A DNA stretch of 46,418 nucleotides from Deltaproteobacteria bacterium (lineage in GTDB: Bacteria > Myxococcota > XYA12-FULL-58-9 > JABJBS01), in the NCBI GenBank assembly GCA_018668695.1, contig JABJBS010000368.1, forward strand, positions 1 to 46,418, read 5' to 3'. Made by a program: the position numbers and the translations under genes. Within the stretch, counting starts at the first letter, position 1. Each line of letters opens with the position of its first letter. This document shows, piece after piece, positions 16,901-43,100 of this stretch. A model generated the notes under the pieces. It was not told the origin of the DNA. It saw nothing but the letters and a program-made list of their open reading frames with translations, and searched no databases.

Positions 16901-17208
16901 ATGTTTACATCAAGCTTACCAGCGACAAGGACGTTGATGTTCAAATCATCGACCAAGCAACTGGTACTGAAATCATTGCCTGGCCAAACGGCCTACTGAG
17001 CGGCGCAACTGAAGGATGCACAACCTATCAAGGTGTTGAGTATTGCTACAGCGGTTACAATGGTGACCAGACGTCAAACGGTAAAGGCAACGAGTGGATT
17101 CGTGTAAACGGCACCACCAACCGTGAACTCATCATGCGCGCCTATGGCTACCAAGCCGGCAATGCGCTGGTAGAGTACTCCTGGGGCGACGCAACTGCGG
17201 GCCAATAA
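13912..17208 (+). CDS. Secreted lipoprotein: TGase-elicitor-like domain, PPC and EGF repeats
   Basis: The 1098-aa product has a lipobox (LSAC, Cys21). Residues about 30-310 resemble the transglutaminase-elicitor family known from Phytophthora and some marine bacteria: WTGICHAWAPAA (candidate nucleophile Cys166), FTVMDIKGLITLAYD and a conserved GTRCN. If active it would form Gln-Lys crosslinks. Two PPC-like beta domains (about 314-408 and 515-605, each with GDADLYV) follow, then six EGF-like repeats (626-805, DINECATNNGGC), a GGDNGN linker (806-838) and two tandem copies of a roughly 125-aa C-terminal domain (840-1098) containing EIIAWPNG. The domain set suggests a cell-surface protein that binds or modifies other proteins. 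It has its own long leader and a terminator. Confidence 0.7.
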   Translation: MTSTKILTIAVAVSALTLSACSKDFSDVQLDEAQMTATGAMAWSNADRPQIVDLDNSYNYKFAELPTTGEATKVPWASDYWSTFKDSINQKVVGETLSPAAKFGAAFGKENLEDGVSVNYGVDARPTADMCTSNDDCEAVNGVAKVCAKRDGKDTGYCMETWTGICHAWAPAAILEREPEHSVTKNGVEFTVMDIKGLITLAYDKGSQSKFVGTRCNQDLGATDEDSIEFDEFGRPIGCEDTNPGTLHLVLANLIGIQGETLVEDRTIDYQVWNQPIRGYEVLVNEEITELQANELIQVYEGQRNEEEEGDLVKDAWAHFDAYTVVEGETVAVEMTGNGDADLYVKFGSQPTTSDYDCRPYANGSTENCNLTAAAGQTQVFVSVFAYATPADEDLKYTIATRLGGALATEYKFNDDAVAFRKIQTKVSWITEAYASKASDNGNLANTIDNYTKTDTYNYVLELNADGEIIGGEWFGVSKKDHPDFLWLPTIKNEFEVATVPEWHINEDVTVTAGEWKDYGSFDVEAGQKISFTLNGDGDADLYVGIGSAPSDSYNACSGTINTADDFKSKQVCAGTVSSGWNKVYVKVKGVAETSDVRVRVNTQTAGTGITWAEVQELLEASLNVDPCETDNGGCNADFFTCNNNNGVAECVDVNECLTNNGGCGDSAFTTCANNSGAAVTCTDINECATSNGGCGNAAYTTCTNNAGAAATCTDINECATNNGGCGSATYTTCTNNTGAAATCTDINECATNNGGCGSATYITCTNNAGTAATCTDINECATNNGGCASGETCVNNNGVAPTCQPDNNGGDNGNGGDNGNGGDNGNGGDNGDGGFNWGSACESGSGEFNQPISFRDTVVVGTIPADKADVYIELLSDEDVDVQIIDEETGTEIIAWPNGLVNGAGESCTTYQGVEYCYSGYNGDGSNLGHEWIRVNGTTNRNVIMKAYGYKAGDALVNYSWEAPEDCVDQGSGEFNQPIADKATVTVGNIPAGKEYVYIKLTSDKDVDVQIIDQATGTEIIAWPNGLLSGATEGCTTYQGVEYCYSGYNGDQTSNGKGNEWIRVNGTTNRELIMRAYGYQAGNALVEYSWGDATAGQ
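15868..16332 (+). repeat. EGF-like coding repeats with exact 93-bp period
   Basis: The units begin at 15868, 15961, 16054, 16147 and 16240, each starting GAC(A/G)T(C/T)AA(C/T)GA and encoding a 31-residue D(I/V)NEC...NGGC module. The central units are nearly identical at DNA level, indicating recent expansion or gene conversion. A sixth, more diverged unit precedes them at about 15787. Confidence 0.85.
16337..16413 (+). repeat. 18-bp tandem repeat encoding a GGDNGN linker
   Basis: About four copies of an 18-bp unit encode Gly-Gly-Asp-Asn-Gly-Asn and join the EGF array to the C-terminal domains. The unit is low in complexity and prone to length change. Confidence 0.75.
16434..17199 (+). repeat. 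Duplicated C-terminal domain of about 125 residues
   Basis: Two tandem copies share SGEFNQPI, DVDVQIID, TGTEIIAWPNGL, TTYQGVEYCYSGYNGD and EWIRVNGTTNR. The paired Cys residues (CTTYQGVEYC) are conserved. I do not recognise the domain; its pattern resembles a PPC-like beta sandwich. Confidence 0.7.
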
Positions 17209-18669: not shown

Positions 18670-19617
18670 ATGTTTAAGCTGCGTTATAAAGCGGACCGCC
18701 GCACGCTGGGGTTTGTAGGCTTTTATTTCTTCCTACTGATTTTCCAATGGATCACGGTGCCCACCAATCCCTGGATAGCCGTTCCCCTCTTTATCGCCAC
18801 CTGCATCTGGTCGTGGTTTTGCGCAATCATCACCCACAACACGATTCACTGCCCCATTTTCAAGAACAAGAAAATGAATAGCTGGTTTCAAATCATCCTG
18901 AGTTTAACCTACGGCAACCCTGTAAGCTCTTATGTTTCGGGGCATAATTTGAGCCACCACCGCTATACGCAAAAGCCTAAAGACATCATGAGAACAACCA
19001 AGGTTCGGTTCTCTTGGAATTTTCTGAATCTCTTGTTCTTTTTTCCCGCGGTTATCCCCGCAATTGTCTCCAACGACTTCCAATTCTCAAAGATGATGAA
19101 GAATCGCCGGCCACGCTGGTACCGTCAGTTCATGCTGGAGAGCGCCGTCTTCTACACCGTATCGGCTACCCTGCTCGTCTTAGATTGGCGTAAATTCCTC
19201 GTCTACTGGTTCGTTCCACATATTTGGGCTGCCTGGGGAATCGTCAGTATTAACTTTTTGCAGCACGATGGTTGCGACGAAGATTCAGAGTTCAACCACA
19301 GCCGCAACTTTGTTGGAAAAACCTTCGGCTGGTTTACCTTCAACAATGGTTTTCACACCATCCACCATATCAAGCCAGGCCTCCATTGGAGCTTACTGCG
19401 CGAGATTCATGACCGTGATGTTGTGCCCCATATGCACCCGTCCCTCAATCAAGCCTCTATATTTCAATATAGCTTTCACGCCTTCATTCTGCCTGGCCGC
19501 CGTACCCGCTTCGATGGCGAGGCTTTGGTCATACCAAAATCAGAAAAAGACCAGGATTGGTTCCCCAAACTCGGTGAGTCCATCAATCCAGGCGATCTTG
19601 GGGCCGAAGACGCCTGA
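18670..19617 (+). CDS. Membrane fatty-acid desaturase
   Basis: This 315-aa integral membrane protein has the three histidine boxes of the di-iron desaturase/hydroxylase superfamily: HNTIH (HxxxH, near residue 58), HNLSHHR (HxxHH, near 98) and HTIHH (HxxHH, near 235). Hydrophobic segments lie around residues 14-55, 115-135 and 160-200. The family introduces a double bond or hydroxyl into an acyl chain using O2 and reduced electron carriers. The position on the chain cannot be deduced. The start is the ATG at 18670. Its upstream region shares a 12-bp motif with the FAAL/PKS operon, so a role in the same lipid is plausible but unproven. Confidence 0.88.
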   Translation: MFKLRYKADRRTLGFVGFYFFLLIFQWITVPTNPWIAVPLFIATCIWSWFCAIITHNTIHCPIFKNKKMNSWFQIILSLTYGNPVSSYVSGHNLSHHRYTQKPKDIMRTTKVRFSWNFLNLLFFFPAVIPAIVSNDFQFSKMMKNRRPRWYRQFMLESAVFYTVSATLLVLDWRKFLVYWFVPHIWAAWGIVSINFLQHDGCDEDSEFNHSRNFVGKTFGWFTFNNGFHTIHHIKPGLHWSLLREIHDRDVVPHMHPSLNQASIFQYSFHAFILPGRRTRFDGEALVIPKSEKDQDWFPKLGESINPGDLGAEDA

Positions 19618-22841: not shown

Positions 22842-23822
22842 ATGAGCGGCGAAACCAGAACAGGGCGGGACCTGATCAGCGCTACCCGAAAATACGCGAA
22901 AGAAGATAAAGCTAAGAGCTGGTGGTATACCTTATCCACTTTTGGGCTCTGGGCGACTTGCAGCCTACTCGCAGCGATTCTACCGACTTGGCCGGCCCAA
23001 ACAGCTGCCGCCATTATTGCTGGGATGATTTTCGTACGCGCATTTATTCTCTACCATGACCATGTTCACGGAGCTCTTTTGAGCCGTAGTAAAAGCGCGA
23101 AGCTCCTCTTCTCTCTGCACGGCCTCTACCAAATGACGCCCCGGACTGTTTGGAAAGAGACGCATAACTATCATCACGCGCATACCGCTAAGATTGCCGG
23201 TTCGCATATCGGTTCCTACATGATGGTCACCACACGCATGTGGAACATGATGACGCCGATGCAAAAGCTGAAGTACAAATTCAGCCGCCATCCTCTGACG
23301 ATTCTCTTTGGTATTTTTACGGTGTTTGTCCTTGGCATGCTTGTCAGTTCACTTGTGCGGGATCCGAAGAAAAATTGGGACTCCTTCGCCTCACTTATTC
23401 TGCATACCTGCTTGGCAACTGCTGTACCCTACTTCTTTGGCTGGAATGCATACTTCTTCGGCATCTTCTTGCCATTGGCAATTACCTGCGCAAGCGGAGC
23501 ATACCTCTTTTACACCCAGCACAATTTCCCAGGAATCCACATCGTGGAACGAAAAGACTGGGAATACACGCGCGCTGCCTTAGAGTCATCGAGCTTCTTT
23601 GACTTAAGTCCAATGATGCACTGGTTTACCGGAAACATCGGCTACCACCATATCCATCACTTAAACCCATCGATTCCGTTTTACCGCTTACCTGAGGTAA
23701 TGCGCGATATGCCGGAAACGCAAAACCCTGTTCGGGTTCAACTCACGTTAAAGTCTATGATTGAGTGCTTCAAGCTCAAGCTTTGGGATCCCAAGCAAGG
23801 TAAAATGGTCGGTTATCCGTAG
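22842..23822 (+). CDS. Membrane fatty-acid desaturase, DesA-like
   Basis: The 326-aa integral membrane di-iron protein has three histidine boxes: HDHVHG (HxxxH, near residue 72), HNYHHAHT (HxxHH, near 108) and GYHHIHH (HxxHH, near 272). Its architecture resembles bacterial omega-6/delta-12 or beta-carotene-ketolase-like desaturases, with hydrophobic segments around residues 35-75, 150-175 and 190-225. Regiospecificity cannot be inferred. It converges on the PKS gene with a 39-bp gap and no obvious terminator. Together with the desaturase at 18670 it places two acyl-chain modifying enzymes beside the lipid-assembly operon. Confidence 0.88.
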   Translation: MSGETRTGRDLISATRKYAKEDKAKSWWYTLSTFGLWATCSLLAAILPTWPAQTAAAIIAGMIFVRAFILYHDHVHGALLSRSKSAKLLFSLHGLYQMTPRTVWKETHNYHHAHTAKIAGSHIGSYMMVTTRMWNMMTPMQKLKYKFSRHPLTILFGIFTVFVLGMLVSSLVRDPKKNWDSFASLILHTCLATAVPYFFGWNAYFFGIFLPLAITCASGAYLFYTQHNFPGIHIVERKDWEYTRAALESSSFFDLSPMMHWFTGNIGYHHIHHLNPSIPFYRLPEVMRDMPETQNPVRVQLTLKSMIECFKLKLWDPKQGKMVGYP

Positions 23823-23861: not shown

Positions 23862-26800
23862 CTAGACTCGCGGACTCTCACTCATTGAGGGCTCAAGTAC
23901 CTCAAGGGCTCGAAGCTCTTGTGCCAAGGTGTCGGCCGTAAACCGCAGCTGATCTTCAGTGTGTAGAGAGCTTAGGAAAAACCGCAAGCGTGCCGCATCT
24001 TCATCCACCGCAGGGTAAACAATTGGCTGCACGTTGATGCCCTTCACTCTTAGGCTCTCTGAGAGCTGCAAAGACTTCATAGAATTGCCTACGATACACG
24101 GAACAACCGCAGAGCCTTCACTAAAGCCCGTGTCGATACCGTGTGCCTTAAGTGCCTTCAGGAAGAACTCCGAATTGTGCTGCAAGCGCTTCACATTCTC
24201 GGGTTCCTGATTCATCAAGCGAATTGCTTCCAAAGCCGCGGCTGAGTTGGCCGGGCTAATCCCCGCCGAGAACACAAAGCCTGGCGTGGTATATTTTAAG
24301 TACTCAACCAACGCTGCGCTTGCGCCGATATAACCACCGCAACTAGCAAAAGACTTCGAGAGCGTACCCATCCAGATATCCACCTGATCGCCGCGTGTTC
24401 CAAAATGCTCACGAATACCGCCTCCGGTCCCGCCGAGAACACCAGCACTGTGCGCTTCATCTACGAAGAGAAGACACTTGTACTTATCACGCATCTCAAT
24501 GAACCTCGGCAGGTTCGCGATATCACCATCCATAGAGTAAACACCCTCGATGGCAATCACACACTTTTCAAAGTGGGGACGAAGCTGTGAGAGAATCTTA
24601 TCGAGTTCTTCCCAATCATCGTGATGGAATGGCCGGCGCTTGGCACCGCTTAAGAGCGCGCCTTGCATGATCGAGTTGTGGGCCAGCGAATCGTGAACAA
24701 TCAAATCCTTCTCGCCAAACAAATGACCAATCACCGATTCATTGGTGTGGTGTCCGCTGGAGAAAATAAGCGCCGATTCTACCTGCAAGAGTTTCGCAAG
24801 TTCTTCTTCAAGCTGACCGTGTAAAGGTCTTTCGCCCGATGCTACGCGGCTTGCAGATACCGATGTGCCATATCTTGCAATCGCATCTTGGGCTGCCTGC
24901 ACCACTTGAGGGTGGCCTGAGTAACCAAGATAATTGTAGCTTGAAAAGTTCACCATTTCATGGCCCGCTACAACCGAAACATCCCGCGCCGTGCCCTCAT
25001 GTACACTGAAGAATGGGTTTTGGAGGCCCATGGCTTCGGTCATCTTGAGGCGTTCCGCAAATGCTTGAACCTCGGGAAAAGCTTCTACCTTATAATGCTG
25101 ATCCTGAACTTCACTCACCGAGTCGTCGGCCTCTGAAGTACTCTCTTGGGAGGCAGACTCAAAAACCTGCGCTTCTACATTTTCTAATATCGCGAACAAA
25201 TCACCGTTAGCATCGGTGTATCGAATCGAACCGGTGAAAGACGAATCTCCGACTTCAACAGAGACCACGTGGCAATAAATCGTATCACCCGAGAAAGGCT
25301 TTACATGAATGAACCGTCCGAATCCTACTGGAAACGCTGCCTTCTTATGAAAGTGCCACATCCAATAGGCAACCAACTGAAAACTCCCATCAACAACCAA
25401 GGGGTCTACAGCCCAGGCGCTGCGTATAGACATCGGTACCCAGTCAGATGGCTTTGATGTTTTCACCAAGCCCTTCACCCCGTGTTGGTCCATGGCCGTA
25501 ATCGACTCAACGCCATGTAAGAGCGGTCCATGAAAAGTATGCTCAGCATAAAAGTCTTCGAGCGCGAGCGGCAATTCAGGAAGAACCGATGGTTGAACCG
25601 CAAAGGTTTCACCCTCCTCTTGCCAATCGGCCATAGACTCGATTTGCGCCTTATATGCGAGCGCCTTCTTACCATCCTCTACCGTCTGCTTAAGCTCCCA
25701 CGTCGCCTTCAGTACACCATCAACATCGTGACGTGATGAGGATGTTTCACCTTCCAATAAAACCGGAGAATTGGCCACCACCCCTTGGTAGAGTTTAAGA
25801 TCTCGAACCTCGTGCACGCCATTATCACATAGCTCGAGAGCAACCTGACAAACCTGGTCTAACGCTACTGCAAGAGGCATGACCGGCTCACCTTTTAAGC
25901 GGTGGTCTTCCAAGTATGGGTGCGTAAGCGTGGAAAGCACTTCCGAAGTAGCCAAAGAGCTGGTCTCCAACGCCACCCGTCCCCCAACCAGAACTTCCCC
26001 TCTTGTCCCGCTGGACAACACTTCGTCTAGTAATTCAAATCCTTCATCGTCTTGTAGAAACCGAACGCCCTGGCTTTCCATGGCTTTACGGACCGGCGAG
26101 GGAATCGTCTGAGCCATCGACGAATCTTCCCAAGGCGGCCACATCACCGACGTCACACAGAGGTCTTTTCGTTCACGCCCGACAAAGGTAAGAGCACGGT
26201 TCAGCCACTCGTTTGCAGCGCTGTAATCAGTTTGTCCAACATTCCCAAAACGTCCCGACCATGATGAGTAACCCACCATAAACCGCAAAGGTTCATGTTC
26301 GAGGGCCTGCATCGTATTCAAAAGGCCCAAAGCTTTGGTGTTAAAAACCGTCCGCAAATCTGAAATCGTCTTATCTTCGATGCGCTTATCCCGGATGACA
26401 CCGGCACAATGAATCACTCCTGTCACCGGCCCCAACGACTTCACGGCGTCTAGCTGATCCGCGCTCATCACTGCCTGAACATCCCAGCGAATATAAGTAG
26501 CGCGTGAACCCAAGGATTCAATGTCTGCCAATGTCTTGGTGATATCCTGAGCATCGTTCGAATCAGAGCGCCCTGTGAGTACCAAACCGCACTGGTATTT
26601 TTTCGCGAAGTGAAGAGCCGTCTTCGCACCAAGGCCGCGTCCGCCACCGGTAATAACAATGACATCATCTTTGCCAATCGTATGACCATCTGCCGAGACA
26701 TCCGCCACTGGCTCAAGTGAAACCACTTGCCTTCTGCCACCCGTAAACCCAACCTCAACTTCACGATCTGCACAAAAAAGCTCTGCAGTGATTTGCTCGG

Positions 26801-29800
26801 CTAAACCTGCATCGGAAGGATCAATATCGATAGCTTTAACCAACGCGTGCGGCCATTCCTTAGCCAGCGCCTTGGTAAAACCGACGAGTCCAGATTGCTG
26901 CAAAACACGTTCAGCGTAATCGCCTGGTTCAAGGCCGAAGTGACCACCCAACCCGGTTAGGCAAACAAATGCCTTTGCAGAATTGGGCGCAGTTTTGTGC
27001 AAGCCTGAAGCCAGCTTATAAGCCACTTCAATAGATGAGCTCAGATCAGACTTAGAACCGCCTGACTCCAGCAGCTTCGCGCAGGCATCAAGACCCGCAA
27101 AGTGAAGCACAGAATCGGGCAGTAATTGGTGCTTACCGAGCGTCTCAAAAAGTGCATCAACACTCGTCGGGTTAAGCTGCCAATGAAGAATATCTTCACT
27201 AAGTGGTCCTTCAGCATCCCCTGGCGTTCCCATGGAATCAATCAATACTACCTGTAACCCAAAATCCTTAAGAACCAGCGCTGTTGCGTCCGCAACACCA
27301 CCACTGTCGCGGGTGAGTAGTACCAAATCTCCCAAACGTTCTGGAGATGCCGGCAACAAACTAATTGGGCGTGCAGACAACACGGGTTGATACCGCATCA
27401 ACACATCGTTGATCACTTCATCACCCGCTGAATCTGATTGATTCAGAACCTGAGTAAGATGCGCTGCAATGTCTTCAATCGAGGTCTGCTCACTCATCAG
27501 TGACTGCGGAATACCGCCTTCTAGCTCCTTAAACCGTGCATCGACTTTCGAACTCAACTCCACGAACATCAGTGAATCAAAACCAAGGTCTGCAGACAAA
27601 CGTTGCGTTGGTTTAAGAGCGCTCGCAGGAAATGCGCTTACATCCGACACCAGCTCAGAGACAATCTTAAGCACTGCATCCAAGGCCCACTCGTTAAGCT
27701 CCGTTGTTACCGGCGCAGCTTGCTTGGCAACTGGCTCGGTTTCAACGATTGATTCCTGGTTAGGCGTTACCGCAACCTTGTTTAGGTTCTGCCGTGCAGC
27801 TGCGAAATCAACTTCGCCGGTACCGCCGGAAAGAATCGCTGTTTGCTGTGCTAGAATTTCGGCATGCGTCGCTAAGATACTTGCTTGCTCCCGAAACAAT
27901 TCGACAAGCTGCGCCTGTTCTCCCGTTGCCTTAGATTCAGCAGCCGGAGCAGCCAGATCGTCTTCGGTCACATTGGCTGGGCGAAGCGCGATGACCTTTT
28001 CCTGAACCACCCAATAGGGTTCTTTTTCGAGAAGCGTCTCGGGCAGCGTCACCAATGTGTTCGTTTCGCTTGGATACAACGCCTCCCACTGAATATCACA
28101 ACCCAAACTAAAAAGTTGGCCCAGCGCTCGCATGAGCGTTCTTTCGCCATCGTGTTTAGAATGATGAAGTTGAACCACATGGGCTCGGTCGCTTAGGGTA
28201 CCCTTCGCAAATGATGTGAGAGTTTTACCTGCGCCGACTTCGAGAAAAACATTCGCACCTTCTTCAAGAGCGGTTTCTAAACAGCCTACAAAATCTACGG
28301 GCGCAGTCGCGTGCCGACTGAAGACACTTTGAATGGAGTCCTCACCCTGAGCCGCATTATAGGGGTTTGCAGTAATCGCGGAGACTACAACCTTGTCCGC
28401 ACCGAGGATTTCAAGCTCCTCGATCAACTGATCTACATCACCGGTTACGCCCTCAACCACGGGGGAATGAAATGCATGGGATACTCGTAAAAGCTTCGCC
28501 GCAATCTTGGCAGCCTTGAGTTCCTCAACCGCACGTTCCACAGCCGCAGTGGTCCCAGAGATGACCGTTTGTCTTGGATGATTAATATTCGCAACCTCAA
28601 CGCCGTCAATTTTAGCAATGACTGCTTCAGTCTCGCTCCGGCCAGCCATCGAAGCGGCCATCGCGCCGAAATCATTAAGCTCAAGTTCAGCCATAAGTTT
28701 GCCGCGTTTAGCAACAAACTGAAGAGTTTGGCTCTCACTAAGAATTCCCCCGGATGCTGCAGCGACAAATTCACCAAGGCTATGACCCAGCGTGATCTCA
28801 GCATCGATGCCAAGACTTTCTAGAAACTGTCCCAAAGCGAGACCCAGTGCCGCCATCGTGGGCTGGCAAACCTGAGTGGCTTTCAGCGCATCCTCGGCTG
28901 CCTCTAAAGATTCCTTTGTGCCATCTAGCTCGGGATAAAGGTAAGTCAGAAGTGGCTTGGGCAGAATGCTCTCTACCGCTTGTGCCAATGAATCGAGTGT
29001 TTCTTTAAATTGAGCCGAGCGCTCATACAGGCCACGCAATAAGCCTACGCGCTGAGCCCCTTGTCCCGGGAACATCCATGCAAGTCTCGGAGTTTTCTTT
29101 TGGGCTTCATGGTCAACCAGCACGAGGTCCGGGCCTAGAATCCCAGGAACCACGCCATTGCTTGCATGCGCTGAAAGTTCTTGTAACTGCGTAACAAACT
29201 CATCTCGGTTTGCTGCCACGATCACAGCTCGAAATCGTTCAAACTTTCGTGTCGTGTTCAACGTGCCCGCGATATCTTCGATTGACCCATGCTTAGCGAA
29301 CCCCACCTGAACCGCCTCCGCCAATTCAAGTGCGTGCTGACCCAGAAGATCTAATGAAGGTCCCGTCACAACGAGTGCATGCGCCGGCGAAACGTCTTGT
29401 GTCCATCCTGAGACATAAACAGCAGGGCGACTCTTCGCGGGCGTAGCTTCTTCCAGAACGACGTGGCAGTTGGTGCCACCAAAGCCGAACGAACTCACAG
29501 CGGCGCGGCGCGGCGTATTCCCGCGCACCCAAGGTGTCTGTTCACGAGCGATATCGAATGGAGTATCATCTAGCCCAAGCTTAGGATGAGGATTCTCAAA
29601 AGCGGCTTGAGGTGGTATCACCCCGTGTTTCATCACCATCACCGCTTTAATCAAACCTGCGATGCCTGCCGCGCTCATAGTATGACCGATATTTGCCTTA
29701 ACTGAAGACAGCCATACCTTCTCTGGAGCTGACGCGTCTTTGCACATTGCCTGCTCAAGTGCTCCCACTTCGACGGGATCACCGACCGGGGTTGCTGTAC

Positions 29801-30893
29801 CGTGGCATTCGACAAATTCAATCGTAGCAGGATCGAAACCCGCATCTTCGTGTGCTTTTTGAATGGCCGAGAGCTGCCCTGCTGGGCTCGGCGCCATAGG
29901 GCCGGGACTCCCATTACCATCGTTATTGATGCCCACTCCTCGAATCACAGCATGAACACGGTCACCATCTTCAAGAGCGGTGGAGAGGCGTTTTAAAACA
30001 ATAATCCCGGAGCCATCACCCTGTAGGAATCCATCAGCTTGTGCATCAAACGGCCTGCACCGACCTTGTTTTGAAATTGCACCGATCCGCGAAAAACAAA
30101 CGAGATTGAGTGGTGTCAAATTGAGATAAGCACCACCTGCAACCGCGCTATCGCAAAGACCTGCCCGAAGATACGTCACAGCATCGGTAACGGCGACCAA
30201 TGCAGAAGCACAAGCAGCATCAATACTAAAGGCGGGACCACCAAGTCCCCACTGATGAGCTATACTGGCTGCTGCCATATTGAGAAGCGTGCCTGGCATC
30301 GAGAAGGCAGATAGAGGCGCCAAATTTTCAACAGAGTCTAAAAGTGGCTTTAAGGCCGCTTGGTCTGGTTTATTACCCCAGATGCCCGAAGCCATGCCCA
30401 AGGCCATCGTTCGCATACCGAGGATATCCCGATATTCCGATGAACTTAGACCGAGAAAGGTTCCCATTCGGTCTGGATTAAAACCCGCGCCGTTTTCAAA
30501 ACCCGTTTCGAAATCGAAACGTTCAAGGCCAGCGTCTTGTAGAGCGGCTCGTGCCGTATCCATCAAAAGCCGGTGCTGTGGGTCCATTCCCTGTACACGC
30601 TTGGGAGCAATCCCATAGTGCATAGCAGCGAAGTCACGAACGTTTTCGATAAACGCTCCTTTTTGAACGTAAGTTTTATCTAGGTTCCGTGGCACCGGAG
30701 AATAAAAGGCATCATTGTCCCAACGGTCTTTTGGAATCTCGCTAAAACACTCTTTACCCGCAACAATATTTTGCCAAAAAGCATCCACATTAGGCGCCTG
30801 GGCAAAGCGACAGGCCATACCAACGATAGCAATATCTTGGTCTGGGTTTAAGTCGCTCGAGTTCTCTAAATCGTGGGGGTATGAATTCGCCAT
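23862..30893 (-). CDS. Polyketide synthase fused to alpha-oxoamine synthase (KS-AT-ACP-KR-DH-AOS)
   Basis: The 2343-aa start at 30893 has GAGAGCGG upstream. Domains: KS 20-440 (Cys228, His364, His404); AT 600-930 (Ser705 in GHSLGE; HAFH at 806-809, typical of malonyl-CoA specificity); ACP 1070-1150 (Ser1107 in LGFDSL); KR 1180-1595 (GGGRGLG 1416-1422, catalytic Tyr1557); DH 1650-1915 (His1664 in HRLKGEPVMP, Asp1835); PLP oxoamine synthase 1950-2335 (VDEAHSAGV, Schiff-base Lys2180 in GTLSKSF). The KS-AT-ACP-KR-DH order recalls PfaA of PUFA synthases. There is no ER and no thioesterase, so the enoyl chain should be released by decarboxylative condensation with an amino acid, as in serine palmitoyltransferase. 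All active residues are present. It is the last gene of the FAAL-MT-ACP-PKS run. Amino acid choice and number of rounds are not readable. Confidence 0.9.
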   Translation of the reverse strand: MANSYPHDLENSSDLNPDQDIAIVGMACRFAQAPNVDAFWQNIVAGKECFSEIPKDRWDNDAFYSPVPRNLDKTYVQKGAFIENVRDFAAMHYGIAPKRVQGMDPQHRLLMDTARAALQDAGLERFDFETGFENGAGFNPDRMGTFLGLSSSEYRDILGMRTMALGMASGIWGNKPDQAALKPLLDSVENLAPLSAFSMPGTLLNMAAASIAHQWGLGGPAFSIDAACASALVAVTDAVTYLRAGLCDSAVAGGAYLNLTPLNLVCFSRIGAISKQGRCRPFDAQADGFLQGDGSGIIVLKRLSTALEDGDRVHAVIRGVGINNDGNGSPGPMAPSPAGQLSAIQKAHEDAGFDPATIEFVECHGTATPVGDPVEVGALEQAMCKDASAPEKVWLSSVKANIGHTMSAAGIAGLIKAVMVMKHGVIPPQAAFENPHPKLGLDDTPFDIAREQTPWVRGNTPRRAAVSSFGFGGTNCHVVLEEATPAKSRPAVYVSGWTQDVSPAHALVVTGPSLDLLGQHALELAEAVQVGFAKHGSIEDIAGTLNTTRKFERFRAVIVAANRDEFVTQLQELSAHASNGVVPGILGPDLVLVDHEAQKKTPRLAWMFPGQGAQRVGLLRGLYERSAQFKETLDSLAQAVESILPKPLLTYLYPELDGTKESLEAAEDALKATQVCQPTMAALGLALGQFLESLGIDAEITLGHSLGEFVAAASGGILSESQTLQFVAKRGKLMAELELNDFGAMAASMAGRSETEAVIAKIDGVEVANINHPRQTVISGTTAAVERAVEELKAAKIAAKLLRVSHAFHSPVVEGVTGDVDQLIEELEILGADKVVVSAITANPYNAAQGEDSIQSVFSRHATAPVDFVGCLETALEEGANVFLEVGAGKTLTSFAKGTLSDRAHVVQLHHSKHDGERTLMRALGQLFSLGCDIQWEALYPSETNTLVTLPETLLEKEPYWVVQEKVIALRPANVTEDDLAAPAAESKATGEQAQLVELFREQASILATHAEILAQQTAILSGGTGEVDFAAARQNLNKVAVTPNQESIVETEPVAKQAAPVTTELNEWALDAVLKIVSELVSDVSAFPASALKPTQRLSADLGFDSLMFVELSSKVDARFKELEGGIPQSLMSEQTSIEDIAAHLTQVLNQSDSAGDEVINDVLMRYQPVLSARPISLLPASPERLGDLVLLTRDSGGVADATALVLKDFGLQVVLIDSMGTPGDAEGPLSEDILHWQLNPTSVDALFETLGKHQLLPDSVLHFAGLDACAKLLESGGSKSDLSSSIEVAYKLASGLHKTAPNSAKAFVCLTGLGGHFGLEPGDYAERVLQQSGLVGFTKALAKEWPHALVKAIDIDPSDAGLAEQITAELFCADREVEVGFTGGRRQVVSLEPVADVSADGHTIGKDDVIVITGGGRGLGAKTALHFAKKYQCGLVLTGRSDSNDAQDITKTLADIESLGSRATYIRWDVQAVMSADQLDAVKSLGPVTGVIHCAGVIRDKRIEDKTISDLRTVFNTKALGLLNTMQALEHEPLRFMVGYSSWSGRFGNVGQTDYSAANEWLNRALTFVGRERKDLCVTSVMWPPWEDSSMAQTIPSPVRKAMESQGVRFLQDDEGFELLDEVLSSGTRGEVLVGGRVALETSSLATSEVLSTLTHPYLEDHRLKGEPVMPLAVALDQVCQVALELCDNGVHEVRDLKLYQGVVANSPVLLEGETSSSRHDVDGVLKATWELKQTVEDGKKALAYKAQIESMADWQEEGETFAVQPSVLPELPLALEDFYAEHTFHGPLLHGVESITAMDQHGVKGLVKTSKPSDWVPMSIRSAWAVDPLVVDGSFQLVAYWMWHFHKKAAFPVGFGRFIHVKPFSGDTIYCHVVSVEVGDSSFTGSIRYTDANGDLFAILENVEAQVFESASQESTSEADDSVSEVQDQHYKVEAFPEVQAFAERLKMTEAMGLQNPFFSVHEGTARDVSVVAGHEMVNFSSYNYLGYSGHPQVVQAAQDAIARYGTSVSASRVASGERPLHGQLEEELAKLLQVESALIFSSGHHTNESVIGHLFGEKDLIVHDSLAHNSIMQGALLSGAKRRPFHHDDWEELDKILSQLRPHFEKCVIAIEGVYSMDGDIANLPRFIEMRDKYKCLLFVDEAHSAGVLGGTGGGIREHFGTRGDQVDIWMGTLSKSFASCGGYIGASAALVEYLKYTTPGFVFSAGISPANSAAALEAIRLMNQEPENVKRLQHNSEFFLKALKAHGIDTGFSEGSAVVPCIVGNSMKSLQLSESLRVKGINVQPIVYPAVDEDAARLRFFLSSLHTEDQLRFTADTLAQELRALEVLEPSMSESPRV

Positions 30894-30958
30894 TTTACCG
30901 CTCTCAAAATGCATATGCAGTTGATTATTTGGAATTCGCTGGAAAACATAAACTCAGC

Positions 30959-30991
30959 AAAAACGAAGAAGGCGGCCAACGGCCGCCTTCT
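30959..30991 (-). terminator. Strong hairpin between ACP and PKS genes, possible attenuator
   Basis: AGAAGGCGGCC (30967-30977) and GGCCGCCTTCT (30981-30991) form a perfect 11-bp stem with a 3-nt loop. On the minus strand it is followed after 3 nt by five T (30963-30959). It lies 20 nt after the ACP stop codon and about 65 nt before the PKS start. It may partly terminate or stabilise the ACP transcript, lowering PKS relative to ACP; this is inference. Confidence 0.6.
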
Positions 30992-31010
30992 AAATCATTC
31001 GCTGAAACGC

Positions 31011-31286
31011 TTACGCGCTCGCTCGCGCTTCGGATACCAAAGCATCCGGCGCTACCGACTGAATCACATTTGACAAGTCTGCCAGTGTTTGAACGCGTGC
31101 AATCTTTTCATCTGGAAGGTGAATTTCTAATTCCTCTTCAATAAAGCCAATCACTTCCAACATCGCCACTGAGTCAATACCAAGTTCACTGATTTTTTGC
31201 TCAACGTTGAGGCTATCATACTTTTTGCGCGCCACTTCCCAGGCTGCCTTTTCAAAAAGAGATACTACTTTTGCTTCTGCTGTCAT
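31011..31286 (-). CDS. Free-standing acyl carrier protein
   Basis: The 91-aa product has the acyl-carrier motif LGIDSV with the phosphopantetheine serine at Ser39, followed by the acidic helix IGFIEEELEIHLPDE. The start is the ATG at 31286 (TGGAG ribosome site 6 nt upstream); the frame could extend 4 codons but that start lacks a site. It sits between the CFA-type methyltransferase (52-bp gap) and the PKS. With a FAAL in the same operon it is the probable acceptor of the activated fatty acid, passing it to the KS of the PKS. The position equals that of the dedicated ACP in bacterial ceramide loci. Confidence 0.88.
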   Translation of the reverse strand: MTAEAKVVSLFEKAAWEVARKKYDSLNVEQKISELGIDSVAMLEVIGFIEEELEIHLPDEKIARVQTLADLSNVIQSVAPDALVSEARASA

Positions 31287-31338
31287 TGGATACTCCATTT
31301 TTCGTTTGTTCGTATTTGTTAAACAAGTCGTCAGGTAT

Positions 31339-32187
31339 TTAGTCGATTCGCTTCAATTGCCACTGAGCGAGAGACTGATAGTGCATTTCGAATGCGCGAA
31401 CACATGTGCTGAGATAACGGTCGTAATCTTCAAACACTTGCGAGCCCCACTTTTCACGAATGAAATCTTCGCTTCGCTTAAGGCCTTCAAGCCAATGTGC
31501 ACACGTCTTCTGATAGTCGACGCGTCGCGTAGTCACTTGCTTCACTTCCCAGTATGGATTAACCGCAATAACGATATCTTCGAGACGCGGTGTGATGCCT
31601 CCTGGGAAAATTTCATAAGTCATCCAGCCAATGTCTTGGATATCCTTACGGTTACGAGGTGCTCGGTTTCGCAAAATAGTCTGGAGCGCAAAGTGTGCCC
31701 CAGGCTTTGTCCATTCATGCGCTAGACGAAAATAATTTCGATAGAGATCGATATGCTCTCCAGCGCGTGCCTGCTCAGGAGTGACCACATGCTCAATCAT
31801 GCAGATTGAGATAACTGCGTCAAAAAGGCGGTCCGGCTTATAATCCAGGTAGTTCACACAATGTGCAGTGACATTTGGAATCTTCCGAGCATTAATTTCT
31901 TCAAACTGTGCTGGACTAAGCGTAATTCCATGAACGTCCTTAACGCCTTTGTCCTGAGCCAAAAATTCAATATTGGCACCCCATCCGCAACCGATATCTA
32001 AAATTGAGCCCTCAGGCGTAATTTTGGATTGGTCGTGAAGGAAATTAAGCTTTGCAATCTGTGCTTCATCCAAGTCATCGGTTTCATCGTAAATACCGCA
32101 AGTGTAATTCATGCGCTTATCCAGCCAAAGCCGGAAAAACTCGTTACCTACATCATATGAAACCTGAACTTCTGCCTGTGTCGACAT
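31339..32187 (-). CDS. SAM-dependent methyltransferase, cyclopropane-fatty-acid-synthase family
   Basis: The 282-aa product has the CFA/mycolic-acid methyltransferase pattern: YDVGNEFFRLWLD and MNYTCGIYDE near residues 11-36, SAM motif I ILDIGCGWG (63-71), GITLSPAQFE and SICMIEHV with the conserved Glu-His. Family members transfer a methyl group to an alkene of a lipid chain, giving cyclopropane or methyl-branched products. AAGGAAGAG precedes the ATG, 24 bp after the FAAL stop, so co-expression is likely. By family analogy the fungal sphingolipid C9-methyltransferase belongs here, which fits the sphingoid-lipid reading of the operon, but the substrate is inference. Confidence 0.85.
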   Translation of the reverse strand: MSTQAEVQVSYDVGNEFFRLWLDKRMNYTCGIYDETDDLDEAQIAKLNFLHDQSKITPEGSILDIGCGWGANIEFLAQDKGVKDVHGITLSPAQFEEINARKIPNVTAHCVNYLDYKPDRLFDAVISICMIEHVVTPEQARAGEHIDLYRNYFRLAHEWTKPGAHFALQTILRNRAPRNRKDIQDIGWMTYEIFPGGITPRLEDIVIAVNPYWEVKQVTTRRVDYQKTCAHWLEGLKRSEDFIREKWGSQVFEDYDRYLSTCVRAFEMHYQSLAQWQLKRID

Positions 32188-32211
32188 GTCTCTTCCTTGG
32201 TTACACCACGC

Positions 32212-34110
32212 TTAAACGCGTGGTCGAATTCTTTTTGTGATTGAGTCTTGAATCCGGCCAACGACCGGTATGGCTACAGCACGCTCTTTCACCGTGTACT
32301 TAACGCGGCTCATAAGCGAACGGACCATATGTCTCGCTACGGTTATTGTTTCACCTCGACTACCCATTGCTCGGGAGCCGCCAGTGGCGATTGTTTTGTC
32401 GATGTAATGTTGTCTTGTTTTGGAACGCTGTAATTTTCCGCTGGAAGTCTTTGATAGACCACCGGGAACCAAGAGGACAACATCCTCAACATTCAAAAAT
32501 AATTCGCCGCGCACCGCATCTTTAACTTGCTGTTTCAGGCTCTCTTCGTCGAGCCCAGGGCGGCATTCAGCCACAACGATTAAGTCTTCACTCTGCTCAC
32601 CCAAAATAGAAAACGCGATGACGTTACCTTTTCGGATTCCCTCAAGATCTGCCACAGCCCACTCAATGGTTTGTGGATCGTAGTTGCGACCGTTTAGAAT
32701 GATGATGTCTTTTTTGCGACCCGTGACGTAAAGTTCACCCGCAACAGTGTAGCCCAAATCACCGGTCCGAAGACCCCACGGCTTAAAGACGTCTGCTGTT
32801 GCTTCTGGATTTTTATAATAACCTGCCGCAATACTGGGTCCGTCAAATACCACTTCGCCTAATGTTCGGTCCGGAAGTACAGTTCCATCCTCAGAACAAA
32901 TCTTCACGGTGTGTCCGTCTAAAGCCCAACCACAGGTAACATAGTCAAGCTGTCCGCTTGGAGAGTCCATGGTTGAACCCGGTGCATGAGCAACCGTTAC
33001 GGCACGACCCTCATCTGCGTAAAGCTGGCTATCAACTTGGTCGACTCGAATGGGGTCCTGAAGACGTGAGAAGCTCATCGCCAACGTAGCCTCAGCCATG
33101 CCGTAAACAGGGAGCATTGCCTCTGGCTTGAGCCCTGCAGGTGCAAAATGATTAACAAATTTCTCGAGGGTTTCGGGATGATTGGGTTCAGCACCACAGC
33201 CCACAATTCGCAACGAACTGAGGTCTAGCTTTGCGAGCTTTTTCTCGGTCGTTCGGCGAACCGCAATGGCGTAAGCAAAGTTGGGTGCAAACGTAGTGGT
33301 TCCCTTGTATTTGGTCACTGTCTCTAGCCAAATTGAAGGATGTTTCACAAATGTCAGAGTAGGAATAAAAACACCACTGCAACCCCAAATCAGAGGTGCG
33401 AGCATCATACCTATTAAACCCATGTCGTGATAAAGCGGCAGCCAGCTAACGGTGACATCTTTACCAGGCACCATTTCTAGACCCGGTCCCATAATGGAAT
33501 AAAGGTTAGCGGCGAGTGTTTTGTGTGTCACCACCACGCCTTTGGGCAGCGCTGTGGATCCTGAAGTAAACTGAAGAAAGACAGTGTCATCCGCCTCAAC
33601 TTTGGCTTCAGGGAAATCCTTCCGAGCTGGGCCTTCTAGCTTATCAATCGTAAGAATTCGCTCGAGAGTTGGAACCTTGTCCACCAAACTCCACAAAATG
33701 GTCTGAACTCGGTTATCGGTAAGTAATACAGTAGCATCCGAAGCGCCTAGAATGTTTTCGGCAGTATCAACGTAGCTATCGAGCTTGCCGAACCCCAGCG
33801 GTGGATACATTGGCACTGGTACAATACCGACGGTGGTTGCTGCGACGAATGTGAGAATGAATTCTTCAGGATCAGGAATGACAAGCGCCAGCTTATCGCC
33901 CTTGCTTAGTCCCAAGGCTTGTAAATGATTTGCTCGCCGCTTTGCTTCAGCCTGTATGTCCTTAAAACTGTAGAACTTTTCAGTACGATCTGGCTGAATA
34001 AAGGTAAAGCCGCGGTCCGTGCCTTTCGAGAGTGAAACCACCTCGTCCAGGGCTCGGCCTACGGTCCAATTTGGCTCAAATTCCTTACGTACGCACTTGG
34101 ATTTTGGCAT
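32212..34110 (-). CDS. Fatty-acyl-AMP ligase (FAAL)
   Basis: The 632-aa product belongs to the adenylate-forming superfamily. Motifs are FTSGSTALPKG (181-191, ATP binding), WLPLYHDMGLIG (223-234), YGMAEATLAMS, LRTGDLGY, GRKKDIIILNGRNYDP and the C-terminal SKTSSGKLQRSKTR with the catalytic-type Lys. The FAAL hallmarks (YHDMGLI, long N-domain without CoA motif, RNYDP) indicate acyl-AMP formation and transfer to an ACP rather than to CoA. The ACP two genes downstream is the likely acceptor. GGGGAG lies 8 nt before the ATG, and a 273-bp leader with stem-loops precedes it. It is the first gene of the closely spaced FAAL-MT-ACP-PKS unit. Confidence 0.92.
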   Translation of the reverse strand: MPKSKCVRKEFEPNWTVGRALDEVVSLSKGTDRGFTFIQPDRTEKFYSFKDIQAEAKRRANHLQALGLSKGDKLALVIPDPEEFILTFVAATTVGIVPVPMYPPLGFGKLDSYVDTAENILGASDATVLLTDNRVQTILWSLVDKVPTLERILTIDKLEGPARKDFPEAKVEADDTVFLQFTSGSTALPKGVVVTHKTLAANLYSIMGPGLEMVPGKDVTVSWLPLYHDMGLIGMMLAPLIWGCSGVFIPTLTFVKHPSIWLETVTKYKGTTTFAPNFAYAIAVRRTTEKKLAKLDLSSLRIVGCGAEPNHPETLEKFVNHFAPAGLKPEAMLPVYGMAEATLAMSFSRLQDPIRVDQVDSQLYADEGRAVTVAHAPGSTMDSPSGQLDYVTCGWALDGHTVKICSEDGTVLPDRTLGEVVFDGPSIAAGYYKNPEATADVFKPWGLRTGDLGYTVAGELYVTGRKKDIIILNGRNYDPQTIEWAVADLEGIRKGNVIAFSILGEQSEDLIVVAECRPGLDEESLKQQVKDAVRGELFLNVEDVVLLVPGGLSKTSSGKLQRSKTRQHYIDKTIATGGSRAMGSRGETITVARHMVRSLMSRVKYTVKERAVAIPVVGRIQDSITKRIRPRV

Positions 34111-34383
34111 CCTTGAGTCTCCCCAGTTCTCGTTGGAACTCCCTCAAAAAGGGTGCCCAGAAGACATAGTGGTCTTCGGGCTTAAGGCCGGACTATCAAC
34201 TCAGTGCACGCAATGTGTCAATATCAAAGCCGATTGGTATTGGATTTATGCCCAATTAACTTTTGGAGGGACAAATTGGTCTACTGGTATGATTTTATTG
34301 ACCAAAAACTGCGAATGTCGCGCGCAATTGGTCCTGACTTACATCACCGGAGGCTATCTTAAGTACGGAATAGGCCTAAAGGA
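34111..34383 (-). promoter_or_regulatory. Upstream region of the FAAL operon with repeated TTGGTC sites and leader stem-loops
   Basis: This 273-bp region probably holds the operon promoter. TTGGTC (34276-34281) and GACCAA (34300-34305) form an inverted repeat. AATTGGTCCTGA (34326-34337) matches the desaturase operator at 18642 in reverse, and AAATTGGTCT (34273-34282) matches 22730-22739. Nearer the start are three short stem-loops: AGTTC/GAACT (34125-34140), CCCT/AGGG (34141-34153) and CCC-GAAGAC/GTCTTC-GGG (34156-34180). A FadR-like regulator is a guess from the half-site. Confidence 0.45.
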
Positions 34384-35361
34384 TCAATTTGGGCTTAGTC
34401 GGCCGGTCTCACGGAGCCACTCAAGGGTCGGCACCAGCGCATCGGCGGCGCTGCGAAATTCAACGCCCAATTCTTCCCTAGCCTTGCGATTATCCACGAA
34501 CCAATAACGGGTAGCATATGGAATGACCAAGGGGTTGTAGGGAAGCGGAATCTTCAAAGTTGTGGCCACGGAAGTTATGGCCTTCAGGACTGGGTTGGGG
34601 ACCGTGATGATGCTGTTTTTCTTCTCAAGCAGACGCAGAGAGAGCTCAGCCAGCTCACGCACTGTTAGGTTATCGCCGCCGAGGATATAGCGCTCGCCGC
34701 TGCGACCCTTTTCCAGTGCTCGAATGATGCCCAAAGCAACATCATCGACAAAGACAACACTCGTACCGCCGTTACAAACCAAGACTGGGTTGCTCTGCGC
34801 GAAATCGATGAGGTTACCGGCCGTGACCATTGCCTCATCCTTGGGTCCATACACTTCAGCCGGGTTCACAATGACAACCTCTTGGCCGGCAGCAGAAGCC
34901 TCCAGGCACAAGTTCTCAGCTCGGTGCTTACATTGTGCATAAACCAACCGCTCGTCGGTAAGCTGAAATGCCGTTTTCTCGTCGAAAATTTCCGGCTGCA
35001 TAGAGCCGTTTACTGCAATGATGCTTGAACAGAACACAATACGCTTCACACCAGCCTGCTTGGCTGCTTCCAGTACATTGGCCGTTCCCTTAACAACAAC
35101 TTCTTCCATCACCGGTGAGTTGATGTCGTCCCATGATGAAGGGCTTGCTAGGTGTAACACGCCATCGCAACCTTGCATTCCTTTTTTGAGACACTCAACA
35201 TCTCGAACATCGCCCTCGAATCGCTCCCATGACAATCCATCGATTCGGGAAGTATCGCTGGTAGGACGAACCAAACAACGAACAGAGTAATCTTGGTCCA
35301 ATAATTGGCGCACAACACTGGAACCAATGAACCCATGACCACCGGTAACAAATACCCGCAT
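34384..35361 (-). CDS. Extended SDR, candidate 3-keto-sphingoid reductase (CerR-like)
   Basis: The 325-aa start at 35361 has GGAG 6 nt upstream; the longer form would use a TTG inside that site. TGGHGFIG (6-13) binds the nucleotide and Tyr141-X3-Lys145 (YAQCK) is the catalytic pair. The family (atypical extended SDR, NAD-dependent epimerase-like) includes the CerR ceramide reductase of Caulobacter as well as dihydroflavonol reductases and 3beta-HSD enzymes. Its place next to a FAAL, ACP and oxoamine synthase suggests that it reduces the 3-keto group of the condensation product. That is inference from context; sequence alone gives only the family. It is 273 bp upstream of FAAL and 100 bp downstream of infA on the same strand. 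Confidence 0.78.
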   Translation of the reverse strand: MRVFVTGGHGFIGSSVVRQLLDQDYSVRCLVRPTSDTSRIDGLSWERFEGDVRDVECLKKGMQGCDGVLHLASPSSWDDINSPVMEEVVVKGTANVLEAAKQAGVKRIVFCSSIIAVNGSMQPEIFDEKTAFQLTDERLVYAQCKHRAENLCLEASAAGQEVVIVNPAEVYGPKDEAMVTAGNLIDFAQSNPVLVCNGGTSVVFVDDVALGIIRALEKGRSGERYILGGDNLTVRELAELSLRLLEKKNSIITVPNPVLKAITSVATTLKIPLPYNPLVIPYATRYWFVDNRKAREELGVEFRSAADALVPTLEWLRETGRLSPN

Positions 35362-40104: not shown

Positions 40105-43100
40105 TTAAGCACCTTCTGCAGTACAGACATAAACTGTGCCTGTTTCTGAACTGATCCCTGCACAAGTAGAGTTCTGCGTGGTGCACATCGACACATCGGC
40201 ACTCCCCTCTGCATTCGTACAGGAAGGTAAACAAATGGTACCACTGTTTCCGTTAGGCCCAGCCATCTCTTTACAATAACCCAGCGCGCCGTTTTCGTTG
40301 GTTGGCACACATTGAGTTCCCTGCATTGCTGTACCCGGTACATCACCGGATGAACAAGCCGAAAGACTCGGAGTTAAACAAACATTGGAAGCGCTATCAC
40401 AGCCGACAAAAGAATAGACCGAGCAATCTGAATCAGACGAGCAGCCAGCGTCCGGGTTTAAACAAGCCTTGTAATCTGCCCGGGCACCATCTGTGCTTCC
40501 GGTTGTCATGTATTGCGTATATGCACCCATTCCAACCAAATCGAGATGCTGGCAAAAAGACATGTTGCTATCGGTCGAATCCGAAGCAACACAACTGTTG
40601 CTTGAACAATCTGGCAAACAAATCGAGCCGTCCCCATTATTCACACAACGACCAGCCTCATTTGCATCTTCAACCCCATCTAAATCGGAATCCACGGTAC
40701 ATGCAGTACCCGTAGGGGCAAATACTTGCTGCCCTTCCTCAATGGTCTCGCAAGCACTCTTAGATGGCACCATACATTGGCCGGCGCTACCACATCCAAA
40801 GCTAGTGGCTGGGCAGGATGCATCCGGAGAAGTGGTTGCTCCTACAACGGAACATGTAAGCGGTGTAGGCAAACATACACCAATTGTTTGTGTATCAGCG
40901 ATGATACCAAATGGCTGGCAAACGCTGTTGGCATTCGTGCACACCTCTCTGTTACCAGCACTGTAGAAGTTCTCTAGACCCTGGCTACCACAAGTTGCCA
41001 TGCAGCCTCCATTTACACAGATACCGTTCAAGAACATCCCAGCCCAATCATAACTGCAGCCTTCTCCATCATTCGAGCCGCCGCATGAGTAGTTACTTGG
41101 CGGCACACAACGGTAACCTTCTTCACCGAGGTCGACTTCATGACTGCCTGTAGGGCATTGGTTATCAATCGGAAATGTATCGTTGGCGACACACACATAA
41201 GCCGTTGACTCCGCGCCAATATTACCCGTTGGCAGACAGACAGAATTCGCGTTTTCACAGTTTGCCGACTCGTCGCAGGTTGCAAGACAGGAGCCGTCAT
41301 AACATTTACCATTTAAACCGCTGTCACCCGAAACAAAGAAACAATGGCTTGTATCTGGCTGACCGTTGCATACATCAGCACTTGGATCGGCACATTCATA
41401 CATACCATCGCCAAGGCTGATTTCATGGTCACCTGATTCACACATATCGTCTTGTATATAGGCAAGACACCGACCTGAATTCTGAAGATCACAGATTCCA
41501 GACACGCAATCCCCGTTGGAGCTACAGGTTGATGTTTCGTTACTCAGTTTACAAACCTGCTCTTCGCAAAGCGTCGCACGGAAGTTGTTCTGATTTGAGT
41601 AAGTGGCTGTACAAGCAGCTGTCGTGCACACACTGCAATCTTCATCAATCCAGCAAGCCTGACTCTTAATACAGCCGCCGCAATCCGGGCCACCGCAGTC
41701 TACATCGGTCTCCTTGCCATTTTTCAAACTATCGTTGCACGTGTTCGCTGTACAAATGTTTTCAGCACAACGTCCAGACTGGCAATCAGAGTCACCGCTA
41801 CAGGTTTTTCCATTGATACAAGAGACGCAACTTCCACCGCAATCTGTATCTGTTTCAGACCCTGCATCCGTCGAACCGTTCAAGCAACTTGAGGCGTATG
41901 GTAGGCAATTTTTTAAATCGATTTCACACTGAGAGGTGCAGCTGAGAGTCGAGCCCGCCATGCCAAAATCCTCGCACGTCATACCACGGAAATTGGGCGA
42001 AGGCGAAAGGGGAATACCCGGGTCGCAAGCTTCAGAATAAACAACTTGAGGCACGCTATGATTACCCGAAATATAGGAGGTATCGATGTTACCATTGCCA
42101 CAAGGATTTTGCTGGCAGAAGTCCATACGAAGCCGGCAGTTATCCTCACAGCCTGGCGAATTGCTCATGTTGTCCATACCCAAGCGAGCACCACCTGCGA
42201 TGCCCTCCCATACAGACCGGCAACTGATCATATCCTCGGAGCCATCACAGGCTTCCTCCGGATGGTCTTTTTCATGATTGCCGCAACGGTACCCATAAGC
42301 ACATTGCGAATAATCAAAACGACAATCGTTTCCACACGTCACGGAGCCGCTTCCCAAACCGAAGTTTTGGCACTGGTCAGCGTTGGGCGACACACCTCCG
42401 TCGCACTCCTCACCGGCTGAAGCCTGAACCATACCATCTCCGCAAGAAGGCTGAGGCACACATTGAGAATCATCAAATACGCAGCCGCTGGTGCAGCCGA
42501 GGGTACCACCGACATAGCCAAAGCTGGCGCAGGTATGGTCTCTACCGTCTACCCGGTCTGCGTTATAAACCCAGACCCTATCCGTCACTTCACCACCGGT
42601 TTCACCGCCGAACATGAATATTCCGCCGTCGCCAGACCCCAGAAGCATATTGCCAACATTCGCGCTTGGCCCGGAGCAACCCGTGCCGCTCCCACACTCG
42701 TGAGACCAGAGCCAAGCTTCTGTGGATGGGTTCATCTCCAAGCGCCAAAGAGCATCTGATGGGCCGTTGGTACCTTGGCCGCCCATGATATAAAAGAGCG
42801 GGGCTCCTGATTCTGAGCTACCTGCTGACATGCCGGCATCGCGTACACCGGGAGCACCCGTGCAACCAGAGTTACCACCGCAAAGTAGTTGCCAGCCGTC
42901 CTCACTGTAATTCCAGAACTCATCACTGTAGGAGCCATCCTCAAGCTGGCCACCAAACATATAAAAGGTTGATGAATTCATTCCGAAAAATGCTGCCCCT
43001 GCACGAGCACTCGGGCAGGTTCCTTGGCATTCCAGTTGTTGCCATGACGCCGCGTTGGCATCGAGAGGTCGCGTCCAAAGCCAATGGTCACTGAGTTTGT

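Follow-up and report, generated by a model that had tools for sequence, protein, structure and literature searches.

The DNA analysed here, called the window below, is the whole 46,418 bp contig JABJBS010000368.1 (G000:C368) of a Deltaproteobacteria bacterium (Myxococcota) whose genome assembly comprises 5.87 Mb in 424 contigs. On its minus strand lie five open reading frames (ORFs) that encode, in order of transcription, an extended short-chain dehydrogenase/reductase (SDR), a fatty acyl-AMP ligase (FAAL), a methyltransferase of the cyclopropane fatty acid (CFA) synthase type, a discrete acyl carrier protein (ACP), and a very large protein in which a polyketide synthase (PKS) is fused to an oxoamine synthase (AOS) (Table 1). 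The original prediction, made from the letters and their reading frames, had named this same set at this place, and each of its structural points was right, including the ATG that it used for the SDR, which is the best-fitting start and has GGAG upstream; the ACP may begin at an internal ATG instead of its first one. Between the ACP and PKS-AOS genes there is a terminator-like hairpin, a terminator or attenuator, so the five genes need not form a single transcript. A scan for sigma-70 promoters gave sites no more numerous than in shuffled sequence.

Table 1. Features of the cluster and its flank, in window positions (KS, ketosynthase; AT, acyltransferase; KR, ketoreductase; DH, dehydratase; PLP, pyridoxal phosphate; SPT, serine palmitoyltransferase; SAM, S-adenosylmethionine).
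Feature	Position	Strand	Basis
Extended SDR, putative 3-keto reductase	34384..35361	-	Pfam Epimerase
Fatty acyl-AMP ligase	32212..34110	-	Pfam AMP-binding; NCBIfam
CFA/CMAS-type SAM methyltransferase, E. coli Cfa H266 = Q169 here	31339..32187	-	Pfam CMAS; alignment
Discrete ACP, probable true start 31286	31011..31298	-	Pfam PP-binding
Strong terminator-like hairpin between ACP and PKS-AOS, 11 pairs then T-rich	30967..30991	-	
PKS-AOS fusion, 2350 aa, KS-AT-ACP-KR-DH-AOS, no enoylreductase	23862..30914	-	Pfam, one frame
KS domain, Cys/His/His present	29598..30839	-	Pfam residues 26-439; alignment; KS tree
AT domain, GHSLGE and HAFH, malonyl type	28116..29078	-	Pfam residues 613-933; alignment
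Internal ACP, LGFDSLM with phosphopantetheine Ser	27456..27662	-	Pfam residues 1085-1153; alignment
KR domain, Rossmann motif, Ser/Tyr, xxD (B-type-like) motif	26124..26660	-	Pfam residues 1419-1597; alignment
DH domain, double hotdog, H1671 (HxxxGxxxxP) and D1842 (DxxxQ)	25146..25991	-	Pfam residues 1642-1923; alignment; predicted fold
AOS (SPT-like), PLP Lys (TLSKSF), DEAHS, HNS, Arg (RLRFF)	23943..24959	-	Aminotran_1_2 residues 1986-2324; alignment; trees; fold
Convergent acyl-lipid desaturase, DesA-like, membership uncertain	22842..23822	+	

The fusion of a condensing enzyme to a KS-AT-ACP-KR-DH polyketide synthase is thus as first proposed, and its elongating and dehydrating domains are intact by Pfam and by alignment. 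In an alignment of 13 such fusions (the window protein and 12 relatives) the catalytic residues checked are conserved: Cys/His/His in the KS, GHSLGE and the malonyl-type HAFH in the AT, the ACP serine, Ser/Tyr and xxD in the KR, the His of HxxxGxxxxP and the Asp of DxxxQ in the DH, and the His, DEAHS, PLP lysine and Arg of the AOS. The exceptions are one incomplete relative that lacks the KS Cys region and one with HGFH in its AT. The Pfam assignment of the DH is weak (two models, E about 1e-7), but its AlphaFold model has the repeated helix and long-strand pattern that would be expected for a double hotdog fold. No enoylreductase (ER) domain was found by Pfam in the window protein or in the scanned myxobacterial fusions. 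Judged from its sequence, then, the cluster holds all the parts for fatty-acid loading, malonate extension, reduction, dehydration and PLP-dependent condensation with an amino acid.

The other four proteins can be characterised as follows. The best of 104 NCBIfam models for the ligase is NF006624 ("fatty acyl-AMP ligase"; 486 bits, below its cut-off of 600), and the protein is 34% identical to AasR of E. coli B. Aligned with residues C139, E239, H266, I268 and Y317 of E. coli Cfa, which we take to be its bicarbonate site, the methyltransferase keeps the Cys, Glu, Ile and Tyr and has Gln in place of His, as has every relative of it that was aligned; it likely acts on an olefin in a fatty chain, and the fungal sphingolipid C9-methyltransferases belong to the same superfamily. 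The SDR had been called "CerR-type", which is correct at the superfamily level, the likeness being a distant one: it is 30% identical over 177 aa to Epi, the SDR of the E. coli B ceramide locus, and its best model, HpnA, scores below that model's cut-off. Other sister loci have a second extended-SDR family in place of the window type, and an SDR there resembles Epi more closely (130 bits). With a threshold of 50% identity, SDRs of the window type were found in five further relatives, and four of these five also have AOS proteins of the window's clade (hypergeometric p 0.0055). An SDR of this family lies upstream of the FAAL gene in G011 (61% identity), and one (51%) adjoins a stand-alone AOS of the same clade in a Flavobacteriales metagenome-assembled genome (MAG).

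Is this arrangement particular to one genome? The AOS clade is present in 13 of 58 relatives and, in a MAG-heavy sampling, in 50 of 195 Myxococcota genomes, 36 of which align with practically the entire DH-AOS model (counted from the listed match coordinates). The nearest same-order relative that carries the cluster is G006. The cluster is shared by many members of the phylum and is not a one-off. FAAL and ACP genes usually lie directly upstream of PKS-AOS in sister loci with enough sequence (G051 is among the exceptions), and the methyltransferase gene adjoins PKS-AOS in 18 genomes including that of the window, mostly downstream, and is absent from some relatives. The search for the same gene order that the original prediction had proposed found FAAL-MT-ACP-PKS-AOS (MT, methyltransferase) again in G059, where the methyltransferase is 66% identical, and in G119 the order is MT-ACP-PKS (70%). 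Such repeated occurrence of these neighbours in other genomes puts the gene set far beyond chance; no further gene family widely conserved beside the related loci was found. The ligase, methyltransferase and ACP could nonetheless be mere neighbours that modify fatty acids for some other purpose, as the hairpin in front of the PKS gene and the placing of the methyltransferase gene (after the PKS in most relatives, missing in others) might suggest, but in different families of the phylum the genes remain clustered even though their order varies, and the arrangements in G059 and G119 repeat that of the window in whole or in part, so we consider such a separation extremely improbable. Reduced genomes of the phylum hold variants: two of 1.8 Mb (L054 and L055, in G046 and G035) encode a 992-aa FAAL-AOS fusion together with a window-type SDR (55-56%), which suggests from the sequences that the lipid may have been kept under genome reduction. 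A further relative (G045; L056 6140-11542) has an 1801-aa ORF with two tandem AOS domains, 39% and 46% to that of the window.

In an 80-row tree the window AOS falls within a 56-row clade (100/99) that also contains SgaB-like proteins, RkpG, and the AOS parts of FAAL-ACP-AOS and KS-AT-ACP-AOS proteins. PfSgaB condenses serine with long acyl-CoA to 3-ketosphinganines in vitro with virtually no use of alanine or glycine, and deletion of sgaA or sgaB in Pseudomonas fluorescens MYb115 abolishes its C24-28 sphinganines (PMC12134224). PfSgaB is thus a proven serine-specific SPT that is fed by a PKS, so a PKS-made sphingoid base has a precedent. We identified a Pseudomonas putida locus (L090) as SgaAB by the published sgaA primer site, which is present at the start of its PKS gene (22/22), and the C-terminal end of this PKS is nearly as encoded by the published reverse primer; its AOS neighbour therefore represents SgaB. 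The PLP-site motif residues of the window AOS match those of SgaB-like proteins. With a 26-row set, forcing the AOS to group with BioF/Kbl/ALAS was rejected by the approximately unbiased (AU) test (p-AU 4.9e-8), so that the firm clustering with a BioF-type clade that was to speak against the original prediction did not occur. BioF, Kbl, ALAS and CqsA were all rejected as identities of the domain by NCBIfam cut-offs as well (for CqsA, model PRK07179 gives 167 bits against a cut-off of 428). The KS tree places the window with the myxobacterial fusions and the Streptomyces KS-AT-ACP-AOS proteins (98/96), apart from SgaA, RkpA, and the planctomycete and cyanobacterial PKSs.

We lean towards a sphingoid-base pathway in which the PKS is the maker of the acyl donor and its dehydration step the source of a 4,5-trans double bond, a reading to which we give somewhat better than even chances. 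The FAAL would activate a long fatty acid as its acyl-AMP and load it onto the discrete ACP, and the methyltransferase would methylate or cyclopropanate an unsaturated acyl chain, perhaps on that same ACP. The KS would accept the chain, and malonyl from the AT would add two carbons, most simply once, since with a ready-made fatty acid supplied iteration is unnecessary. KR and DH would then convert the beta-keto group to a trans-2-enoyl thioester on the internal ACP, and this double bond should be retained because there is no ER and the DH is intact. The fused AOS would condense the enoyl chain with serine (the likely partner, as PfSgaB is serine-specific), with loss of CO2, to a 2-amino-1-hydroxy-4-en-3-one of the 3-ketosphingosine type, whose 3-keto group the SDR would reduce to give a 3-hydroxy 4-ene sphingoid base of the sphingosine type, no desaturase being needed. 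PfSgaB and the gene context both point to such a sphingoid output, and the product is probably an unsaturated, sphingosine-like membrane lipid.

Several observations weigh against this pathway. The AOS phylogeny that excludes BioF/Kbl/ALAS also excludes membership among the canonical bacterial SPTs (p-AU 2.8e-8 with the same 26-row set, in which these were from Sphingobacterium, Sphingomonas, Prevotella, E. coli B and myxobacteria); in that set the deep branches between the AOS families are not firmly placed, the AOS trees were built without PfSgaB (represented by near relatives) and CqsA, and the choice of serine is accordingly a deduction from relatives. The top fold match of the predicted DH-AOS model is to SPT with L-serine (3a2b, for the AOS part), a match that does not discriminate between SPT and Kbl, BioF or ALAS. 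For a YghO-type ceramide synthase the genome offers a weak match at best, which leaves N-acylation without explanation; most sister loci have no SDR or have the other SDR family instead; the hairpin stands between the ACP and the PKS; and the chain could be saturated by an ER acting in trans, or extended further if the PKS is iterative. AOS families differ in the amino acid that they use, and a clade outside the canonical SPTs (p-AU about 3e-8) might take glycine, alanine or some other amino acid as substrate, so that 1-deoxy-type bases or a different amino ketone would result in place of a true sphingoid base, but PfSgaB, through its close relatives in the same clade, is almost exclusively serine-specific, and with the agreement in PLP-site motifs this makes another amino acid quite unlikely. 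Trans-acting reductases for PKSs are known in general, and one of them (for example a housekeeping FabI-type enzyme) could reduce the enoyl chain, so that the same pathway would end in a long-chain sphinganine like the saturated C24-28 products of SgaAB. The SgaA relative has an ER of its own, however, whereas the scanned myxobacterial fusions have none along with an intact DH, and since no further gene family is conserved beside the loci there is no conserved ER gene there; we think a saturated chain rather unlikely. Being a single module with KR and DH but no ER, in an order reminiscent of the iterative enediyne and polyene synthases, the PKS might instead work iteratively to a conjugated polyene, and release by the AOS would then yield a polyene amine with the role of a pigment or antibiotic and not of a membrane lipid. 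We judge this very unlikely, as a dedicated FAAL and ACP deliver a ready-made fatty acid, a supply also seen at the ceramide locus of E. coli B, and the locus has no other widely conserved neighbouring gene family.

If the sphingoid pathway is correct, what would it add? PKS-derived sphingolipids have been known since 2025, and among bacterial pathways of this kind SgaAB alone has been proven to date. The claim that no characterised example exists stands for the exact set, for which the literature search found none (no paper was found on a fused KS-AT-ACP-KR-DH-AOS system, and a search on myxobacterial sphingolipids found nothing on biosynthesis), but not for the general idea of a PKS with an AOS, since SgaAB is characterised and RkpA/G/H has the same layout. 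A broader proposal, which we hold only tentatively, is that Myxococcota make 4E-sphingosine-type bases without a desaturase, probably with a methyl-branched or cyclopropane chain, the double bond being formed by the PKS DH before serine condensation, and that this system arose independently of SgaAB, when the same AOS module was combined with a KS of a different clade. Bacteria would then have a second way, built separately from the first, of making sphingoid bases with a PKS; a 4,5-trans double bond like that of eukaryotes could arise without a desaturase; and genome surveys that seek canonical SPTs would miss sphingolipid producers, because this AOS clade is rejected from the SPT clade although it includes enzymes closely related to a proven SPT. 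The AOS module would also be a good system for studying the recombination of lipid and polyketide enzymes and a tool for making sphingoid analogues. The value of the proposal lies in the desaturase-free sphingosine double bond that it predicts, in the spread of the cluster across the phylum and in its being directly testable.

Some other genes of the window can be described briefly. The convergent desaturase gene was rejected as a core member, as no homologue of it lies beside the related loci; a second acyl-lipid desaturase gene is near the cluster at 18670-19617. Farther away, positions 13912-17208 encode a large protein that combines a PPC domain with a transglutaminase elicitor domain (PF16683, known mainly from oomycetes), and 40105-46416 encode a giant protein with about ten DUF7151 repeats, kelch and TIG domains, which runs to the contig end.

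How does the cluster compare with known systems? Like the canonical ceramide loci (Caulobacter CC_1162-1165/1154 and E. coli B), it has a ligase, an ACP, an extended SDR and a PLP-dependent condensing enzyme together. In E. coli BL21, yghO, a FAAL-annotated ligase, an SDR, an ACP and an SPT lie side by side (yghO-aasR-epi-acpR-spt), which bears out the parallel with ceramide loci first drawn for the window, and the ligase there loads a dedicated ACP for the SPT (PMC9386255). The window differs from these loci in that the SPT is replaced by a PKS-AOS of another clade (the AOS is 32.7% identical to the E. coli B SPT), a CFA-type methyltransferase is added, and no YghO-type acyltransferase is adjacent, the genome having one partial match (E 9e-11) elsewhere. 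A FemAB-like protein of the genome was considered as ceramide synthase and rejected, since it has no similarity to YghO.

With PfSgaAB(C) the window shares a type I PKS that feeds an SPT-like AOS, AOS proteins of one clade, and an SDR proposed as the 3-keto reducer. In the SgaA relatives the domain order is KS-AT-DH-ER-KR-ACP, the AOS has a gene of its own and the KS belongs to another clade, whereas the window protein has its ACP before KR-DH, no ER and a fused AOS, with an SDR of the extended type, and the locus adds a FAAL, a discrete ACP and a CFA-type methyltransferase. Orthology to SgaAB is ruled out by the KS tree and the domain order, and the window route is probably related to the SgaAB pathway but differently built. 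The rkp-1 region of Sinorhizobium meliloti (L149 4325-14088, pSymB), whose genes we take to be those for RkpA, RkpG and RkpH, likewise combines a PKS, an AOS (RkpG, of the same AOS clade) and an SDR in the layout of SgaA-SgaB-SgaC. Its RkpA has the order DH-ER-KR-ACP and lies in a capsule locus, with no FAAL or methyltransferase within the stretch shown. A lipid carrier has been attributed to the rkp-1 region (PMC4881576), and this carrier may be a PKS-made sphinganine. A Pseudomonas plasmid and Caballeronia also have SgaB-like AOS genes within capsule loci (L151, L152).

Other relatives of the AOS are joined to simpler suppliers. Many Planctomycetota (L065, L068, L082 and many others) encode single FAAL-ACP-AOS proteins of about 1150 aa, in which ligase, carrier and SPT-like enzyme are fused; these (L065) and the FAAL-AOS proteins of the reduced Myxococcota genomes share with the window the AOS clade and the logic of ligase and carrier, and, having no PKS part, would carry out no elongation or dehydration. 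The KS-AT-ACP-AOS proteins of Streptomyces have a KS in the window's clade and an AOS in the same large clade; as they have no KR or DH, their AOS would receive a beta-keto acyl chain, and amino beta-diketones are predicted for such loci in Streptomyces and Kibdelosporangium (L086, L112, L153, L100). The AOS module thus appears in combination with at least four ways of supplying the acyl chain (fully reducing PKS, KR-DH PKS, KS-AT only and FAAL-ACP), and with one AOS clade serving different acyl suppliers, the window is a second PKS design and not an orthologue of SgaAB.

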